DNA of 46,382 bases from Bacillota bacterium (GTDB lineage: Bacteria; Bacillota; Sulfobacillia; Sulfobacillales; JAIMBI01). The stretch covers positions 1-46,382 of the forward strand of contig JAJZWV010000026.1 of the NCBI GenBank assembly GCA_021846505.1. Reading direction: 5' to 3'. Both the position numbers and the translations under genes were made by a program. Numbering within the stretch: position 1 is the stretch's first letter; each line of letters begins with the position of its first letter. Positions 1 through 29,041 of the stretch are shown here, piece after piece. The notes beneath the pieces were generated by a model, which worked only from the letters and a program-made list of their open reading frames with translations, searched no databases and was not told the DNA's origin.

Positions 1-1
1 T

Positions 2-310
2 GCGGGCGTGGTAGCGGCGCCATCGGGCCGCCGGGGCTACCTGGTGGAGCCCTTCCGTGTCTGGCTCAACGCGGGCCGGTATCTGGTGAGTGCGCAGCTG
101 GCGGAAAGTCCAGCACCAGCCATCGAGGTGGGGGTCCTGGAGTGGAAGGGCGCGGCCTCCCATCGGTTTCCGATACGGACCGGATCCACGGCCCTAGTGG
201 AGTCCGTGGCGGTGCCCAAAAGCGGGTGGGTCTACGTAGGGGTCTGGGCCAGTGGCCGAGGTGCGTTCGCGGTTGGGAATCTCACCATCCACCGGGTTGC
301 CCGCGGCTAA
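2..310 (+). CDS. 3' end of an unrecognised gene (partial)
   Basis: The frame is open from the first bases of the window and ends at TAA 310, so only about 102 C-terminal residues are visible and the true start lies outside. The visible part has no obvious membrane segment. It alternates hydrophobic and polar residues in a way that suggests beta strands. I recognise no family. A GT2 glycosyltransferase follows 56 bases downstream on the same strand, so a surface or cell-envelope role is possible but unproven. Codon use is GC-rich at third positions, like the neighbours, which supports real coding. Confidence 0.55.
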   Translation, partial: AGVVAAPSGRRGYLVEPFRVWLNAGRYLVSAQLAESPAPAIEVGVLEWKGAASHRFPIRTGSTALVESVAVPKSGWVYVGVWASGRGAFAVGNLTIHRVARG

Positions 311-366
311 GTGACAAGAAGTCCGCCGCCGTCACCCGCCAGTGGGGCAGGAAAGCAGGAGGGAAC

Positions 367-1170
367 ATGCTAGACGGGAAGCGCATCGCCGTGGTTTTGC
401 CGGCCTATGAGGCGGCCCGCACCCTGACGGTCGTGGTCAATGAGCTTGGGCGGGTGTCCGTGGTGGATGACGTCGTGCTGGTGGACGATGCCAGTCCCGA
501 CGGGACGGCCGAGCTGGCCGAGTCCCTAGGCCTGTTCACGGTGCGGCACGAGCAGAACGGCGGCTACGGCGCCAACCAGAAAACCTGCTACCGGGTGGCC
601 CTGGAGCGCGGCGCGGACGTGGTGGTGATGCTGCACCCCGACCACCAATACTCCACCAAGCTGGTGACGTCTATGGCGGCCATGGTAGCGTCCGAAGAGT
701 ACGACTTGGTGCTGGCCAGCCGCATCACGGCCCAGCACAATGCGCTGTCCGGCGGAATGCCGCGCTATAAGTTTGTAGCCAACCGCGCCCTCACCGCCAT
801 TGAAAACGTGCTGCTGCAGCTGAAAATGTCGGAGTACCACTCGGGCTACCGCGCTTTTTCGCGGCGGCTTTTGGCCACCCTTCCCCTGGAGCTCAACTCC
901 AACGACTTCGTCTTTGACAATCAAATCATCGCACAGGCCCGATGGGCAGGGTTCCGGATTGGCGAAATCTCCTGCCCGACCCGGTATGACGAGGAGTCCC
1001 ACTCCATTGGGCTCAAGCGCTCCATGACCTACGGGTGGGGCGTGCTGGCCACTGCCGGACGGTATCGGATGGCCACGTGGGGATGGTGGGTCCCGCCCTA
1101 CTTGGCGCACATCCCGACGCGGGCCGGCGGGGCTGTGGCGCCGGCCGAGTCGGCGGCGGTGGGCGACTAG
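367..1170 (+). CDS. Glycosyltransferase family 2 protein
   Basis: 267 residues. The start is the ATG at 367 because AGGAGGG lies 3-9 bases upstream, although the frame is open further back. The GT-A/GT2 pattern is clear: a VVLPAYEA nucleotide-binding strand at residues 9-16, VDDASPDG at 39-46, and HPDHQY at 90-95 where the metal-binding DxD sits in this subfamily (dolichyl-phosphate-sugar-synthase-like enzymes often carry LHPDxQY). A GYRAFSR segment follows. There is no C-terminal membrane domain, so it probably acts at the inner face of the membrane, moving a sugar from a nucleotide donor to a lipid or glycan acceptor. The acceptor cannot be told from the sequence. Confidence 0.85.
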   Translation: MLDGKRIAVVLPAYEAARTLTVVVNELGRVSVVDDVVLVDDASPDGTAELAESLGLFTVRHEQNGGYGANQKTCYRVALERGADVVVMLHPDHQYSTKLVTSMAAMVASEEYDLVLASRITAQHNALSGGMPRYKFVANRALTAIENVLLQLKMSEYHSGYRAFSRRLLATLPLELNSNDFVFDNQIIAQARWAGFRIGEISCPTRYDEESHSIGLKRSMTYGWGVLATAGRYRMATWGWWVPPYLAHIPTRAGGAVAPAESAAVGD

Positions 1171-4440: not shown

Positions 4441-5108
4441 GGGGTTCCTCCTCTCGCTTACGTGCGACATGGCGCCTGCGCCGCCCAGATCCGGGCGCCA
4501 GGCGCCGTGTGGGCGTGCCGGCCACTTGCCGATAGATATCCACCGGTGCGGCCGGCATGCCATGCGGGCATGTTACCAGCTTCGGGATGGCAGCGCGAAC
4601 CAGCGGGGGCGGCTAGCGCGAAGCGCCCGTCAGACCGCTGTCCCTGGAAGCGGGATGCTGGAGGGTCACTGCGCGCCGTTTGCCATCCGCGCCGGCGCGG
4701 TCGCTGGCGCGCCATATCATGAGAGAGGGGGCATCTCATGTCCCCCCGGCCGAAGAACAAGTCGACGACGTGCAATCCCTGTGGGATCGCATAGCGGCAT
4801 CTGACGGCCACGTTCCCCATCCCGGAATGGCACCGGGAACTCATTCGGCGGCGGCTGGCCGACCCGGACCCTCACCCACGGGACTCGAACCACGTTCGCG
4901 ATGGCATCAAACGGGACTTGCGCGGGCGAGCCGAGCCCCACGCATGAAGCGCGCGGCTGGCGTGGCCCCCTCGGCGCCACAGCGATAGAACTGCCACGGC
5001 TCAATCCCGCGCCCTGGATTGGCGGCTTAGGTTCCGTCGCCCTCGGCCGCGCGCGGGCGAGTCTATCCGTGAGAGCCCCTTGCCCGGCGGCAGGGATCGT
5101 GGCGCTGC
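4441..5108. other. Gene-free stretch between divergent units
   Basis: This 668-base region separates the minus-strand symporter operon from the plus-strand membrane protein gene. The frames crossing it look like GC-rich chance frames and I recognise no protein family in them. A GTTCGAGTCC string near 4881-4892 on the minus strand resembles a tRNA T-loop but has no pairing T-stem. An 18-codon frame at 4738-4794 follows a purine-rich stretch, but nothing else supports it. I could not find a convincing promoter for either side. Confidence 0.4.
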
Positions 5109-6920
5109 GTGGCGAACTTCGGACTGATGACTAAGAGTGTGGCAGGCGGGCGGACGGAGACTCGAATTGGACGGCCGCCCGCGCAGCGCCTTTCAATTAT
5201 GGCGGCACTGGCGCTAGTGTACTTGCTCGCGGCTGTGGCCCTTACTTATCCCGGGGTCCTGGCATTTGGCCACGCGGCTCTGGGGTTGCCAGAGGACCTG
5301 TATCAGAACTTGTGGAACATCCTGTGGGTCAAAGGGTGGCTGGCAGGCCGCCATGGGCTGTACTTCACGCACCTCGAGTATTATCCCACGGGCGCCAATC
5401 TCGCGTGGGAAACCTTAAGCCTCCCGGGCACCGTGATGGCCGCCCTCCTGGCCCCAGCCACTGGCTTGGCCGCCGCCTACAACACCGCCTTGCTGGCGTA
5501 TTGGGTGGCCGACGGGCTGGCCATGTATGTCTTTAGCCGCACCGTGGGCCTGCCGCGCTTAAGCGCAGGCTTGGCCGGGCTCGCGTTCATGGCCAGTCCC
5601 TACTTCGTGGGCCAGATGATGGGCCATCTTCACATGGTCGGCGCCTTCGGCGTCCCGTGGTTCCTGGCAATCTTGTGGCAGCTGTACGAACGTCCTGTGG
5701 GGTCGCCGTGGCGATACGTGGGCCTGGCCGCTGTGCTGGCGCTCACCACCTACGTGGTGCAGGATTATGCGGTGTACGCCGTGGCCGTGGGGATCATGCT
5801 GCTGTGGCTGCACCCAGCCCGGCCTTGGCGCCGCGTGATGGCCGACTGGCGGCGCTGGGTACTGGCGGTCGCCACCTATGCGGCTCTGGTGGCGCCGATG
5901 ATGTACGCCATGCTGCTGGGGCCGCTGGCTGTCCATGCGGGCGCCGTGACCCCTGTGTCCACGCCCTGGGTCGTGGATCTGGAAGGCTTGGTGCTGCCGG
6001 AGCCCTGGGGATTGTCTGTGGGGCTGGCCGTGCACTGGACCCTGGCGCCAGACCTCATGGAAGGAGGCATCTTTCCCGGCTACGTGCTGTGGGCGGCGGT
6101 CATTCTACTTCTCGTCGTCCGCAAGCGTCTGTCCCGTCGCGACCGGGTCTTGGCGGGATGGGCGGGCGTGGGAACGGGTGTGTTTGCCTTGTTGTCGCTG
6201 GGACCGGTGCTGCACGTGGGCGGCCGCATTACCACGATCCCCTTGCCCGAGCGACTGCTGGCGGCCCTGCCTGCGTGGCAGGATACCTGGCCCGAGCGGC
6301 TGGCTATGCTCACGGCCCTGTTTGGCGCTATCCTGGTTGGCGTGGCCGCCGACTGGGTGCGGGCCGAGGTCGACCGCCGGACAGCGGAGAGCCGCCCCGG
6401 CAGCGGACGGCGCATCGTGGTGGTTGGAGGGGTGCTCCTCATCGCAGCGGCGTCTTGGTCCGCTTCCTTTCCCGCCACGCGGCCGCCGGCTGTGCCCTAC
6501 GCCCACCTTGTTCGACACGCAGGGGGCACCGTGCTGTACGTGCCCGCCGTGCTGCCCGGAACGCGGCTAGGCTACGGGTCAACTGAGTACATCTATGTCG
6601 AGGCGGTGCTGGCCGTGCCCACCCCTGAAGGGTATGTGAGCCGGATTCCACTGGCGACCGTGAATCACCTGCAGAAGTCATCAGTGCTCACGTATTTGTG
6701 GGGACTGCAGTTCCGGCGCAATCATGCGGCGGCCTTCGCCCAAGCGGCCGCGGCCGAATTTCCCGGCTACCTAAAGCGCAACCACGTGGGCAGCATCGTG
6801 TTTCTCGCGCAGGGGGTCGCACGGCCCGCGCACGCGGTTGCTTGGCTGCGAGCGCACCTGGGGCGGCGCTGGCGTCTGCACAGCTATGGAGCCACACGGG
6901 TGTTCGTACATGACTCCTGA
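5109..6920 (+). CDS. Polytopic membrane protein, GT-C glycosyltransferase-like
   Basis: About 600 residues with roughly 11 membrane helices. After the first helix comes a loop with PEDLYQNLWNILWVKGW and later YYPTGANL, patterns found in large bacterial integral-membrane proteins of the GT-C superfamily type (lipid-linked sugar transferases). There is a smaller soluble C-terminal part after about residue 450. Possible starts are GTG 5109, ATG 5127 and ATG 5199; none has a strong ribosome binding site, so the start is uncertain. It probably works in surface glycan assembly, in line with other glycosyltransferases in the window, but the specific reaction is not known. Confidence 0.7.
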   Translation: MANFGLMTKSVAGGRTETRIGRPPAQRLSIMAALALVYLLAAVALTYPGVLAFGHAALGLPEDLYQNLWNILWVKGWLAGRHGLYFTHLEYYPTGANLAWETLSLPGTVMAALLAPATGLAAAYNTALLAYWVADGLAMYVFSRTVGLPRLSAGLAGLAFMASPYFVGQMMGHLHMVGAFGVPWFLAILWQLYERPVGSPWRYVGLAAVLALTTYVVQDYAVYAVAVGIMLLWLHPARPWRRVMADWRRWVLAVATYAALVAPMMYAMLLGPLAVHAGAVTPVSTPWVVDLEGLVLPEPWGLSVGLAVHWTLAPDLMEGGIFPGYVLWAAVILLLVVRKRLSRRDRVLAGWAGVGTGVFALLSLGPVLHVGGRITTIPLPERLLAALPAWQDTWPERLAMLTALFGAILVGVAADWVRAEVDRRTAESRPGSGRRIVVVGGVLLIAAASWSASFPATRPPAVPYAHLVRHAGGTVLYVPAVLPGTRLGYGSTEYIYVEAVLAVPTPEGYVSRIPLATVNHLQKSSVLTYLWGLQFRRNHAAAFAQAAAAEFPGYLKRNHVGSIVFLAQGVARPAHAVAWLRAHLGRRWRLHSYGATRVFVHDS

Positions 6921-7119: not shown

Positions 7120-8304
7120 TCAGTGAGAGGATTGGGACCTTGCCCCGCCTGGCACCGGGCAGACAGGCACACCTCCGTCCTGGGCTGGGTCTACCTCGCG
7201 AAATTGTTCCAGCGCCCCGACGACGCAGCCCAGCGTGGTGTCAAAAATCGGCGTCACCCACGTCTCCACGTTGCGGCGAGCGCCTGCCGCATCGGCGACC
7301 GTGACCGGCATCGCGTGCACGACCTGCTCCGCCATGCTGTGGACCAGCGGGCAAAAGCCCCGGCACAGCAGATGCCCGTCTGCATCGCGGTGGTCCAGCG
7401 GGCCTCCGGCACATCGCCGGCCCACCAGCTGCTGGGCCGGGTGGCCCAGCAAGTTTTCGGCCGCACGGTTCCAGGCCACCAGCTCCCGCCGCCGATCCAC
7501 CACGTAGCTGGGAATGGCACTGTCCGCCACCGCCTGCGCGTAGAACGCGAGTGCTGGCGAGGGGTTGGCTGCGGGGGGCGGCGACAGCGGGGTGTGCAGC
7601 CGCCGCCGCGATACCGGTCGAAGCTCTGGCGCCGGCTCCGCGAGGTAATAGCCCTGCGCGTAATCGCACCCCAGGCGCGCCACGGCTGCCAGCTCCTCTG
7701 CCGTCTCCACCCCCTCGGCCAGCAGCGCGATGCCCAGGTCATCCGTCCAGGCCCGCACAGCCCGCACCAGGGACTGCTTCTGAATGTTGTGGCCCACTCC
7801 GGCAATCAGCGCCCGGTCCAGCTTCACCAAGTCTGGCTGCAGGACCAACGCTTCGGCCATGCCGGCGTACCCCGTCCCGTAGTCGTCCATGACGATCAGA
7901 TGGCCGTGGCGCCGCCAGCGCTCCAGGGCGGTCAACAACCCGTCATCGTTCAGCACCGATCGCGCCTCGGACACCTCCACAGCCAGTGGGATTTCTCCCG
8001 CCGCGCCAGAGTCCCAGCGTTCGGGCAGGTGCGGCCACCGCCCATCGATGTTCAGGAAGACCCGATGGGTGGGGTCGGTCCACAAATCGTGGGCCGTCTC
8101 ATACGCCAAACGCTTGCAGGTTTCCTCAAGCGCTGGGGCCTGGCCTTCGGTCTCCGCCCACGCAAACAGGGCGGCCGGAGTGGCAAAGGGAGTGCCAGCG
8201 GGGCCGCGGATCAGGGATTCATACCCTGCCACCGTGTCGGTGTGCAAATCCAAGATGGGCTGCCATGCCACCCACAGCTGTGCCAGAAGATTCACCGGCG
8301 ACAT
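7120..8304 (-). CDS. EAL-domain c-di-GMP phosphodiesterase with C-terminal PAS
   Basis: 394 residues. The N-terminal EAL domain (about 1-235) keeps all residues needed for c-di-GMP hydrolysis: YESLIR (the EAL motif as ESL), FLNID, VEVSE, MDDYGTG, KLDR, EGVET and QGYYL. A PAS domain (about 260-385) follows, with a CRGFCP pair of cysteines that could bind a metal or sense redox. The order EAL then PAS is less usual than PAS first. No membrane segment is seen, so it should be cytoplasmic. It is divergent from the GGDEF protein at 8.8 kb, suggesting opposing control of the same second messenger. Confidence 0.88.
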   Translation of the reverse strand: MSPVNLLAQLWVAWQPILDLHTDTVAGYESLIRGPAGTPFATPAALFAWAETEGQAPALEETCKRLAYETAHDLWTDPTHRVFLNIDGRWPHLPERWDSGAAGEIPLAVEVSEARSVLNDDGLLTALERWRRHGHLIVMDDYGTGYAGMAEALVLQPDLVKLDRALIAGVGHNIQKQSLVRAVRAWTDDLGIALLAEGVETAEELAAVARLGCDYAQGYYLAEPAPELRPVSRRRLHTPLSPPPAANPSPALAFYAQAVADSAIPSYVVDRRRELVAWNRAAENLLGHPAQQLVGRRCAGGPLDHRDADGHLLCRGFCPLVHSMAEQVVHAMPVTVADAAGARRNVETWVTPIFDTTLGCVVGALEQFREVDPAQDGGVPVCPVPGGARSQSSH

Positions 8305-8817
8305 CGCCTCCTGTCGTGCTGCCCAGCTATTGGCGTCTTCGGCTCGACGGGGGCAATCCCTCTATTGACGGGCAACAATTTTGACGGACAATTCTTTGTG
8401 TTTTCCCGAGCCGCGCGGTATGGTGAACTGGGTCAGCGCGTGCAAGGCGCCTCTGTCCCTGATTTCCTGGGCTCGCCCCGGGGAAACGTTTCGTCAGCAC
8501 GCGCCGTCCTGTGTGCAGTCGCTGCAGGAGGTGCGTTGCTCCTCGAACTTCGAGCCTACCCTTCCCCCAGCTGACGCTCGGAAGCTTTGCAACCTGTGCG
8601 CCGTACCCGTCGAGCACGCTTGTGGGCAGGTGTGCTCTGGCCGCAGAATCGGCCCAACAGGGCGGGACTCTGAATTCGTTTGGTTCCCGGCAACCGGCAC
8701 GGATAACCCCGGCCGAATTTCTGTCACAGACCGACATTAATGGTGCAAGAAGAAACCTCCGGTGGATTCTCCAGCAACGCTTCTGGGTTTGGCGGCCAGG
8801 GAGGTGGGGTGGTGTCC
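8305..8817. other. Intergenic region between divergent c-di-GMP genes
   Basis: About 510 bases with no recognisable gene. The notable element is a pair of direct repeats near 8365-8391. I looked for a c-di-GMP (GEMM) riboswitch in the leader of the GGDEF gene and saw no convincing match. The frame of the GGDEF gene remains open from ATG 8740, so a 26-residue N-terminal extension is possible. Confidence 0.4.
8365..8391. repeat. Two 11-bp direct repeats TTGACGGRCAA, possible operator
   Basis: TTGACGGGCAA (8365-8375) and TTGACGGACAA (8381-8391) recur with a 16-base period, about 1.5 helical turns. They lie 60-90 bases upstream of the EAL gene start in the divergent region. A looser copy (TCGACGGGGGCAA) starts near 8344. 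Each copy also contains a -35-like TTGACG. They could be binding sites for a regulator of one or both c-di-GMP genes; that role is inference. Confidence 0.45.
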
Positions 8818-10851
8818 ATGCGTGGGATCGGCGAAGCCCTGCTGGTCGGAAGTGTGTTGGCCGCGGTCATCGTGGCGATTTGGGAGGGTTCATACCTCAT
8901 CATGGCCCCGCGCGCCATGCGCGGAAGAACCTGGGCGCAGGTGGCGGTCCCGCTCCTGGCCTTTTGGAGTCTGGATGCGTTGCAAGTTGTCGACGTGCCG
9001 CTCGGGGCTTGGCTGGCACTGTTGGCTGTATGGAATATAGTGGAAGACACACCGAATATTTATGTTCGAGTGACGGGCGACATCCTCTTGGGTTTCGCCG
9101 CCGTTTTCGCCCCGCGCGATGTGTCCACGCTGGTGAGCCATCTGTGGTCGCTGGGGTGGGTGGTGGTGGTCGCGCTCGCGAGCCTCATCCGCCAGCGAGA
9201 GGCCCTGTCGGTGGGAGTGGCCGGGGTGCTGGCTGGTTGCACCGCGAGCGTCGCCTTCAGCCGCGATCCGGTTCAGGACGGCCTCATCAGCGTCGTAGCC
9301 GGTGTGTGGCTCTACGCCTTCATGCGGTTTCACAAAGAGCATCAGACGGTAGTGACCACGCATCGGCATCAAGCGTTTACGGATGCGCTCACCGGGGCGC
9401 TGACGCGGCATGGGTGGGCCGATTGGTATGCGCAGCGGTCCGATGCTGCGCAGGCAGCCAACGTCATTGTCGCCGCGGACATCGACAATTTCAAGTGGAT
9501 TAATGACACGTATGGCCATCACGCCGGCGACATCATTCTGCAGCAATTCACCGCCCGGCTGAAGAACGCCCTGGGGACCGGGTCGGAAATCGTCCGATCG
9601 GGCGGCGATGAATTTCAGCTATGGATGCCCGGCCTGGCAGAGCCAGTGGCGGGGGGCGTCATCGGTCGGCTGCAGCGGGCGGTCACCGACGATGCCTATG
9701 TGATTGACGCCGGGCGAATCCGGCTCGGGGTCACGATGGGCTATGCGGTGGGCCCCCTCTCTGAGGAGACGGCGCACGCGGCGGACCAAGCGCTTCTGCA
9801 GGCCAAGCGCATGGGCAAAAACCGCGTGGCTGCGGCGGGTGCCACCCCCGCCGCGGACGTCAAGCCACCCAGTGTCAACCTGACTTGGCTGGCAGAGGCC
9901 GCCCACACGCTCTGGGCCACTTGGAGTCAGCCGGCTGCCCTGGTGACGGCCACGGGAGACCTGCTCTATCACAATGCGGCTTTCGCACCGGTGGCGGACG
10001 GCGTGCTGGGTGCCATGCCGCTGCCGGAGCGGGTGCCATGGCGGGGATGGCTTGCGGTGGGTGCGGAGCACCCCGCGTCGGCGGCGGTCATGCCGGTCGT
10101 CTACCAAGGAGCGGTCCAAGGCTATTGGGTCGCGCTGGACGATCCTTCCGCGGCCCCGTCCCCATCGGTGTTGAGCGACACGACCTTCAGCGTCGTGTTC
10201 CAGCCGATTGTTGAGCTCGGCAGCGATGCCGTCATCGGCTATGAGGCGCTCTCTCGCCCGGTGCATCCCGGGATTCCCTGGACACCGGCGTCGTTCTTCG
10301 ACGCCGCCCAAGCCCAAGGCGAAGCGCCCCTGGCGGACGCGGCGTGCTTAGAGGCCGTCGAGCGCACCCTGGCGGCGATAGACTGGCCCCCCGGCCAGTT
10401 TCTGTTCTTGAACATCAGCGCCAAGATCTTGGCAGATCCCGTCTTCCCAGTGCACCGGGACATCCTGGCTGCCCGGTTTCCCAACATTTCCGTGGTGTGG
10501 GAGGTTGCGGGGCGAGGGGGCGCCGCCACGCTGGCGGCCGCGCGGGCGGCCGTGAACCCAGACGCGAGTTTGTGGGCCCTGGACGGCTTGGGAGTCGGCG
10601 AGGCGGACTTATGGCGACTCGCGTCCTGGCCCTGGAAGTGGATCAAACTGGGCCGGACCCTCACAAGCCGACTGCCAGAAGATCCTCGAGTGCGGGATGT
10701 CGTCCGCTTGTTGGTGGACTGGGCGCGGACCGCCGCAGCCGAAGTTATTGCGGTGGGCATTGAGACGCCGGAGGAGCGTCGTGCCGCCGCAGATGTGGGA
10801 ATTTCCCTGGGACAAGGCGATTTGTGGCAGGCGCCCAGCGCCTGGCGCTAG
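8818..10851 (+). CDS. Membrane GGDEF diguanylate cyclase with degenerate EAL domain
   Basis: 677 residues from ATG 8818, chosen because GGGAGGTGG lies about 10 bases upstream (GTG 8812 and ATG 8740 are alternatives). Five or six N-terminal helices are followed by a GGDEF domain with an intact active site: IDNFKWINDTYGHHAGD and SGGDEF. The allosteric RxxD site five residues before GGDEF is absent (GTGS there). A PAS-like linker comes next, then an EAL domain that keeps YEALSR and LNIS but has LDGLG for DDFG, KLG for KLD and VGIET for EGVET, so it is probably not a phosphodiesterase. Expected role: membrane-bound c-di-GMP synthesis, with the EAL part acting as sensor or regulator. Confidence 0.87.
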   Translation: MRGIGEALLVGSVLAAVIVAIWEGSYLIMAPRAMRGRTWAQVAVPLLAFWSLDALQVVDVPLGAWLALLAVWNIVEDTPNIYVRVTGDILLGFAAVFAPRDVSTLVSHLWSLGWVVVVALASLIRQREALSVGVAGVLAGCTASVAFSRDPVQDGLISVVAGVWLYAFMRFHKEHQTVVTTHRHQAFTDALTGALTRHGWADWYAQRSDAAQAANVIVAADIDNFKWINDTYGHHAGDIILQQFTARLKNALGTGSEIVRSGGDEFQLWMPGLAEPVAGGVIGRLQRAVTDDAYVIDAGRIRLGVTMGYAVGPLSEETAHAADQALLQAKRMGKNRVAAAGATPAADVKPPSVNLTWLAEAAHTLWATWSQPAALVTATGDLLYHNAAFAPVADGVLGAMPLPERVPWRGWLAVGAEHPASAAVMPVVYQGAVQGYWVALDDPSAAPSPSVLSDTTFSVVFQPIVELGSDAVIGYEALSRPVHPGIPWTPASFFDAAQAQGEAPLADAACLEAVERTLAAIDWPPGQFLFLNISAKILADPVFPVHRDILAARFPNISVVWEVAGRGGAATLAAARAAVNPDASLWALDGLGVGEADLWRLASWPWKWIKLGRTLTSRLPEDPRVRDVVRLLVDWARTAAAEVIAVGIETPEERRAAADVGISLGQGDLWQAPSAWR

Positions 10852-19475: not shown

Positions 19476-19497
19476 AGGGGTGGCTGAAATAGCAAAG

Positions 19498-19666
19498 GGT
19501 CCTCGTTAGGCGAGGCGTCGGCATCAACACAGGCCACTGCTCCGACCCGTCGAAAGACGCTCACGCGCAGACCAGAAATTGCCGGATTAAGGCTTTTTCC
19601 GAAGTGGCTGAATCTCAAGGGAGATTCTCACGTGGTGCCGTGCTGAAGCTCAACCAGGGGGGACAG
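19498..19666 (+). ncRNA. M-box (ykoK) magnesium riboswitch aptamer
   Basis: The order of conserved blocks matches the M-box: CTCGTTAGGCGAGGC (19502-19516), CCACTGC (19534-19540), GTCGAAAGACGC (19549-19560) and GTGCTGAAGCTC near the 3' side (19640-19651). The closing stem is GTCCTC (19499-19504) with GGGGGGAC (19657-19664). That 3' arm can instead pair with TGTCCTCC at 19678-19685, which is the left arm of the terminator. With Mg2+ the aptamer stem should form and free the terminator; without it the antiterminator forms. This is the established M-box mechanism, and the competing pairings are visible here. Confidence 0.9.
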
Positions 19667-19678
19667 CGTATTTTGCGT

Positions 19679-28870: not shown

Positions 28871-28900
28871 ACAGGAAAAGGCGCCCTTGACGGGCCGTCG

Positions 28901-29033
28901 CCTTCTCCCATCCAGACTGTACTGTCGGTGCCGGATTCTCACCGGCTCCTGCCTATTGGCTCGCGGACTTGACGCCTAAAGCGCATCACCGCCGATCCGG
29001 AATTGGGGTTGCCCCCTCACCGTGCCCCGAAGG
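28901..29033 (-). ncRNA. FMN riboswitch (RFN element)
   Basis: On the minus strand the conserved RFN blocks appear in order: CTTCGGGGC at the 5' end, ACGGTGAG, CCGGATCGGCGGT, AGTCCGCGAGC, then GGTGAGAATCCGG, CCGACAGTACAGTC and GGATGGGAGAAGG at the 3' end. The 5' CCTTC and 3' GAAGG pair to close the aptamer. FMN binding should stabilise it and let the downstream terminator form, shutting down the riboflavin operon. Confidence 0.95.
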
Positions 29034-29041
29034 TCGTACAC

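Follow-up and report, generated by a model that had tools for sequence, protein, structure and literature searches.

The stretch of DNA analyzed here (the window) comprises positions 1 to 46,382 of contig JAJZWV010000026.1 from a Bacillota bacterium of the order Sulfobacillales (GCA_021846505.1), a draft genome of 119 contigs that is 96% complete. At 7120-10851 it carries two divergent genes whose products are predicted to act on cyclic di-GMP (c-di-GMP) in opposite directions. One encodes an EAL-PAS protein, a predicted c-di-GMP phosphodiesterase (7120-8304, minus strand, 394 amino acids, with a GTG at 8295 as alternative start), the other a membrane protein consisting of a GGDEF domain, a PAS remnant and an EAL domain, a predicted diguanylate cyclase (8740-10851, plus strand, 703 amino acids). 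Both open reading frames (ORFs) had been described in an earlier note on this DNA, and both exist, but the second gene more likely starts at 8818 (677 amino acids) because the in-frame ATG at this position is preceded by GGGAGGTGG and homologues of the GGDEF-EAL protein align only from about residue 20-37 onward; the ATG at 8740 follows no ribosome-binding-like sequence. The divergent intergenic region (8305-8817) is 435 bp long if the second gene starts at 8740 and 513 bp long if it starts at the likelier position. A small ORF within it (8327-8737, minus strand) was rejected as a gene, having no Pfam match.

The EAL domain of the EAL-PAS protein (7633-8277, minus strand; residues 10-224, Pfam EAL 4.4e-39) contains the complete catalytic set, E29, N85, E110, E113, D140, D141, K161, D163, E197, E200 and Q217, and all 11 residues were invariant across the 14 rows of alignment A1. 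The wider motif comparison for this family covered 21 homologues, one of them truncated by a contig end. The PAS domain (7192-7545, minus strand; Pfam PAS/PAS_4), for which no membrane segment was predicted, carries the motif C298-x6-H305-x8-C314-x3-C318-PL (7351-7413, minus strand). Its three cysteines and the histidine did not vary across alignment A4 (14 rows), while among 21 rows with a full PAS domain C298, H305 and C318 were present in every one and C314 in 20. The natural reading of this C-H-C-C set would be a metal or redox site; a PAS domain of this kind on a phosphodiesterase is a candidate sensor of interest. Matches to this PAS domain below 1e-12 in the 13 nearest genomes all lay inside EAL-PAS genes (11/11), and PAS and EAL therefore travel together. 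When the PAS alignment was used for a profile search of the PDB, generic PAS folds were returned, and the C-H-C-C residues were not kept as a set in the three alignments shown; single-sequence structure prediction of the whole protein gave a mean pLDDT (predicted confidence score) of 38. A plasmid search with the EAL-PAS protein matched 4052 records, none of which covered at least 80% of the query. Elsewhere in the same genome (locus L113 on contig C74, 4447-4680) a stretch matching the gene's PAS part at 75% on the DNA level, with broken frames, looks like the remnant of a second EAL-PAS copy.

YkuI of Bacillus subtilis is built in the same order, an EAL domain followed by a PAS-like domain, and it is not known to carry a C-H-C-C PAS. 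It gave a weak match (PDB 2bas/2w27), and DosP of Escherichia coli was matched as well. Among the redox-controlled c-di-GMP enzymes covered in PMC8846402, the sections on PdeC of E. coli, a CSS-EAL protein, describe an EAL phosphodiesterase with a conserved cysteine pair as redox switch; that pair is periplasmic and lies in a membrane domain, whereas the EAL-PAS protein carries three cysteines and one histidine in its PAS domain.

The GGDEF-EAL protein begins with a membrane domain (8824-9324, plus strand) of about six or seven hydrophobic segments by 19-residue hydropathy and with no Pfam match. In the following GGDEF domain (9373-9825, plus strand; Pfam GGDEF 3.3e-23) the signature and the metal and GTP (guanosine triphosphate) residues are all present in the alignments. 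The product-inhibition site (I-site; 9574-9585, plus strand) reads GTGS instead of RxxD, with G279 and S282 in place of the arginine and aspartate. RxxD was kept in 15 of 20 relatives and absent in five (G019, G031b, G012, G017 and G028; these handles denote the genomes compared). A degraded PAS domain lies between GGDEF and EAL (approximately 9889-10134, plus strand); it was located by alignment, as Pfam finds none in the window copy, and Pfam recognizes the inter-domain PAS in 5 of 7 relatives.

The EAL domain that follows (10174-10836, plus strand; Pfam EAL 1.7e-29) lacks catalytic residues. Four replacements stand out in the alignments: E591G (10510-10512), where E stands in the 11 further rows of alignment A2 and K in G010 of the wider set; D616G (10585-10587), the second D of the DDFG motif; D638G (10651-10653) in the KLD motif; and E672V (10753-10755), the first E of the EGVE motif, all on the plus strand. 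The motifs accordingly read LDGLG for DDxG, KLG for KxD and VGIE for EG(V/I)E, and an alignment with RocR gave the same state for DDFG, KLD and EGVE. Residues E502, R506, N558, E588, D615, K636, E675 and Q692 are retained. Twenty relatives were aligned, 13 of them with a readable EAL domain, and the equivalents of D616, D638 and E672 were intact in all 13; the loss is therefore specific to the window copy. In the tree of cyclases this copy grouped with G019 and G031b (supports 100/98 and 100/100). Since the I-site is absent throughout this clade and the EAL changes occur only in the window copy, loss of the I-site probably preceded that of the EAL residues. Locus L027 in these comparisons is genome G011, which supplies one row of the alignment of cyclase relatives, of the near-invariant-site count and of the tree. 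Examples of tandem GGDEF-EAL proteins in which one half is dead are known, but the timing and cause of such a loss are rarely visible; here four specific losses are seen in one copy.

At the residue level the enzyme assignments of the earlier note hold. The invariant motif columns and the Pfam EAL match bear out its statement that the EAL-PAS protein has every residue expected of a phosphodiesterase, residue alignment agrees with its reading of an intact GGDEF active site lacking the RxxD motif, and D616G, D638G and E672V, including the comparison with RocR, confirm an EAL domain without the DDFG, KLD and EGVET residues. Its domain reading of the second protein was right as to GGDEF and EAL and overlooked the degraded PAS domain between them.

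Two explanations were considered for what has become of the degenerate EAL domain. The window copy breaks seven near-invariant family sites in EAL (other members 0-5) and two in GGDEF (others 0-4). Over the whole EAL domain relative-rate comparisons counted 18 versus 10 changes with G019 (p = 0.18) and 16 versus 13 with G031b (p = 0.71); as neither difference was significant, the domain is not visibly rotting as a whole. A simple decay of an unneeded C-terminal half on its way to a GGDEF-only protein is in keeping with family members that end after the PAS domain (G005, G011, G020 and G022) and with the alteration of both PAS remnant and EAL in the window copy, but the frame is open through the entire EAL domain and the overall rate is not significantly raised, which leaves this explanation doubtful. 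The domain could instead serve as a c-di-GMP receptor of the LapD or FimX kind that would regulate the GGDEF domain or a partner and replace the missing I-site. This proposal is possible but tentative: the EAL match is retained together with the EAL motif, N558, E588, K636, E675 and Q692, and no significant overall acceleration was found, whereas the PAS domain ahead of EAL is degraded too. The EAL motifs of LapD and FimX are altered, which we also count against a receptor role for a domain that has kept its motif.

The sections of PMC7288161 that review degenerate EAL domains as receptors, together with those of PMC4823724 on LapD, FimX and Filp (for LapD see also PMC3032553), describe EAL domains that, like the one in the window, lack residues for metal-dependent hydrolysis. 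Both halves of those proteins are described there as inactive, whereas the window protein keeps a complete GGDEF domain and the EAL motif. A further likeness is offered by AxDGC2 of Gluconacetobacter/Acetobacter xylinum, a GGDEF-EAL protein presented in the relevant parts of PMC4823724 and PMC8846402 as having diguanylate cyclase activity only; a working GGDEF half alone is also what is predicted for the window protein. AxDGC2 differs in sensing redox state through a PAS domain with flavin adenine dinucleotide, where the window protein has an uncharacterized membrane domain and an inter-domain PAS remnant. In CC3396, another GGDEF-EAL protein treated in PMC4823724, it is the phosphodiesterase half alone that is described as working.

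The earlier note had gone further and read the two genes as a make/break switch, and their co-occurrence in relatives had been set beforehand as a test of this claim. We compared 42 genomes of the order, the window's own genome (G000) included, scoring the EAL-PAS family as present at E below 1e-60 and the GGDEF-EAL family at E below 1e-40, both cut-offs having been chosen after the match lists were seen. EAL-PAS was present in 17 genomes and GGDEF-EAL in 20; seven genomes held both, ten only EAL-PAS, 13 only the cyclase and 12 neither, so that the two families showed no co-occurrence (Fisher p = 0.54, odds ratio 0.65). Adjacent orthologues were found in one of the 42 genomes, the window's own, which is one of the seven holding both. 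In the other six, all drafts, the genes lie on different contigs; in G021, where both are near contig ends, no partner was seen by eye in roughly 1 kb of upstream sequence. The two genes thus occur separately, and the switch as an evolutionary unit was not borne out.

The nearest relatives point in the same direction. EAL-PAS orthologues were present, at other places, in all three same-genus genomes (83, 68 and 65%), while no GGDEF-EAL orthologue was found in these three, where the search gave generic GGDEF/EAL matches with a best E of 2e-17 to 3e-14. On contig C52 of the same-genus genome G001 the flanks on both sides are syntenic with the window, and 1.3 kb replaces the 4.1 kb of the window with neither gene there; a six-frame reading of these 1.3 kb showed transposase-like fragments by eye. 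In G002 the same flanking genes are split between two contigs, both ending near this site. The closest relative of the cyclase, 46-48% identical, belongs to a different family of the order; horizontal gain and differential loss would both fit. Among the best 80 of 588 relatives in a database-wide scan with the cyclase, one match was near full length (46%, metagenome-assembled genome WH5.bin23).

We therefore favor the reading, at a probability of roughly 0.6, that two antagonistic c-di-GMP enzymes became neighbors in this lineage without forming a conserved switch; within this single genome the two may nonetheless work together. The opposing proposal, a dedicated make/break module that would be co-regulated from the shared intergenic region of 0.4-0.5 kb and would receive a membrane signal and a Cys-PAS signal as inputs, draws on the divergent adjacency and the opposite predicted activities. 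Neighboring cyclases and phosphodiesterases with sensor domains are known from DosC/DosP, which are encoded in one operon, whereas the window pair is divergent; DosC and DosP also differ in having haem sensors and other architectures. Besides the single adjacency among 42 genomes and the lack of co-occurrence, the intergenic region itself argues against such a module: an Rfam search of 8305-8817 found no c-di-GMP riboswitch or other known RNA, and promoter-like matches were of the consensus kind only.

The neighbors of EAL-PAS genes elsewhere bear on the module from both sides. We examined 26 EAL-PAS places, namely the window, G047 (outside the order), which has no GGDEF neighbor, and 24 others, several of them near contig ends. 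A GGDEF gene stood directly beside EAL-PAS at four of these 24 (G001:C7, G038, G029:C109 and G015:C12), compared with 0.13 such adjacencies expected by chance. The four partner cyclases are alike over most of their length (27-76% identity), and because of this mutual homology they do not represent four independent events. Three of the four consist of GGDEF plus an HD domain. At L222, L226, L227 and L076 EAL-PAS lies beside this second cyclase family, which has a large N-terminal part, and these loci are a candidate for a real cyclase/phosphodiesterase pair. No full-length homologue of that partner was found in the window's own genome, where other GGDEF proteins matched around the GGDEF domain only. 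EAL-PAS genes thus do have cyclases as neighbors, but those are not orthologues of the cyclase in the window. With the partner elsewhere belonging to another family, too, we regard a dedicated module at the window as rather unlikely.

The GGDEF-EAL family has habitual neighbors of its own. At 6 of 21 non-window places (G019, G031, G028, G009, G016 and G010) a gene for a methyl-accepting chemotaxis protein (MCP), identified by Pfam in all six, was adjacent or one gene away, with 0.05 to 0.10 expected by chance under the assumption of one gene per kb. At L081 (G031:C23, 4932-14319) two tandem genes of the family are flanked by three MCP-like genes, one of which carries a chemoreceptor zinc-binding (CZB) domain. 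No MCP signaling domain was found in the window's own draft genome, in the three same-genus relatives or in G004 and G006; G005, the sixth other genome of the taxonomic family, has five MCPs. FlhA is encoded on contig C44 of the window's own genome, which accordingly has a flagellar-type export gene apparently without chemoreceptors. The genome also encodes two PilZ proteins, one of them about 14 kb from flhA on the same contig.

Several points weigh against the favored reading of two enzymes that became neighbors without a conserved switch. A complete signature is no proof of enzyme activity. The recurrent adjacency of EAL-PAS and cyclases at other places leaves room for a habit of functional pairing. 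As the window's own genome is a draft, a missing MCP could lie in a gap, yet five of the six other genomes of the family show none. The absence of general decay in the EAL domain fits a retained non-catalytic role, and it also fits simple recency.

Under this reading, the membrane protein would make c-di-GMP through its GGDEF domain, while its EAL domain would carry out no hydrolysis and at most bind c-di-GMP or regulate GGDEF. The soluble EAL-PAS protein would break c-di-GMP down, probably under the control of its Cys/His-bearing PAS domain. The cyclase belongs to a family whose members mostly have an intact EAL domain and often lie beside chemoreceptor genes. As a conjecture, one of the two PilZ proteins would most likely pass the signal on to flagellar motility or attachment.

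Whether a cyclase of this family has lost its EAL domain may go along with whether the genome has a separate phosphodiesterase. In addition to the four members without EAL named above, one family copy in G029 is frameshifted and G007 has an EAL-less copy beside an EAL-bearing one. Five of seven genomes with EAL-PAS carried one or more copies that were EAL-less or dead, versus two of 13 without EAL-PAS (p = 0.022), and all copies were EAL-less or dead in four of seven versus one of 13 (p = 0.031); with the window left out, EAL-less or dead copies were present in four of six versus two of 13 (p = 0.046). These counts are post hoc and exploratory and ignore kinship (G011, G021 and G029 belong to one genus, G010 and G022 to another); G036 was scored as intact though an assembly gap interrupts its EAL domain, and the EAL state of second copies in G029 and G024 was assigned from the match rather than the motif.

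One explanation of this association would be a hand-off, in which the cyclase lost its phosphodiesterase domain in cis because EAL-PAS took over in trans, here from an adjacent gene. The closest relatives, G019 and G031, keep an intact EAL domain and have no full-length EAL-PAS, which speaks for this explanation. The comparison nevertheless covers few genomes, several of them from one genus, in G029 the frameshifted copy is accompanied by an intact one, and G005 has lost EAL yet has no EAL-PAS, all of which makes the hand-off unlikely. The broader generalization, that a chemoreceptor-associated GGDEF-EAL family repeatedly discards its breakdown half, by deletion or residue replacement, where a phosphodiesterase with EAL and a Cys/His-PAS exists, so that breakdown moves from cis to trans and the window is the adjacent case, is a distinctly improbable extension of it.

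Taken as a locus, the finding is modest: its parts are ordinary, their arrangement is confined to one genome, and both are of known kinds. Other features of the window lie outside the pair. Positions 5109-6920 (plus strand) encode a 603-amino-acid protein with no Pfam match that is conserved in the same-genus genomes G001 and G002 at 73-74% DNA identity. Window positions 1-708 are 97% identical to positions 43298-44005 of contig C96 of the same genome, a near-duplicate within the assembly, and positions 4746-4967 are 83% identical to positions 11393-11612 of contig C86, a possible repeat. Two riboswitches scored above the Rfam gathering score, an M-box (Mg2+) riboswitch at 19495-19668 (plus strand) and a flavin mononucleotide (FMN) riboswitch at 28897-29038 (minus strand).

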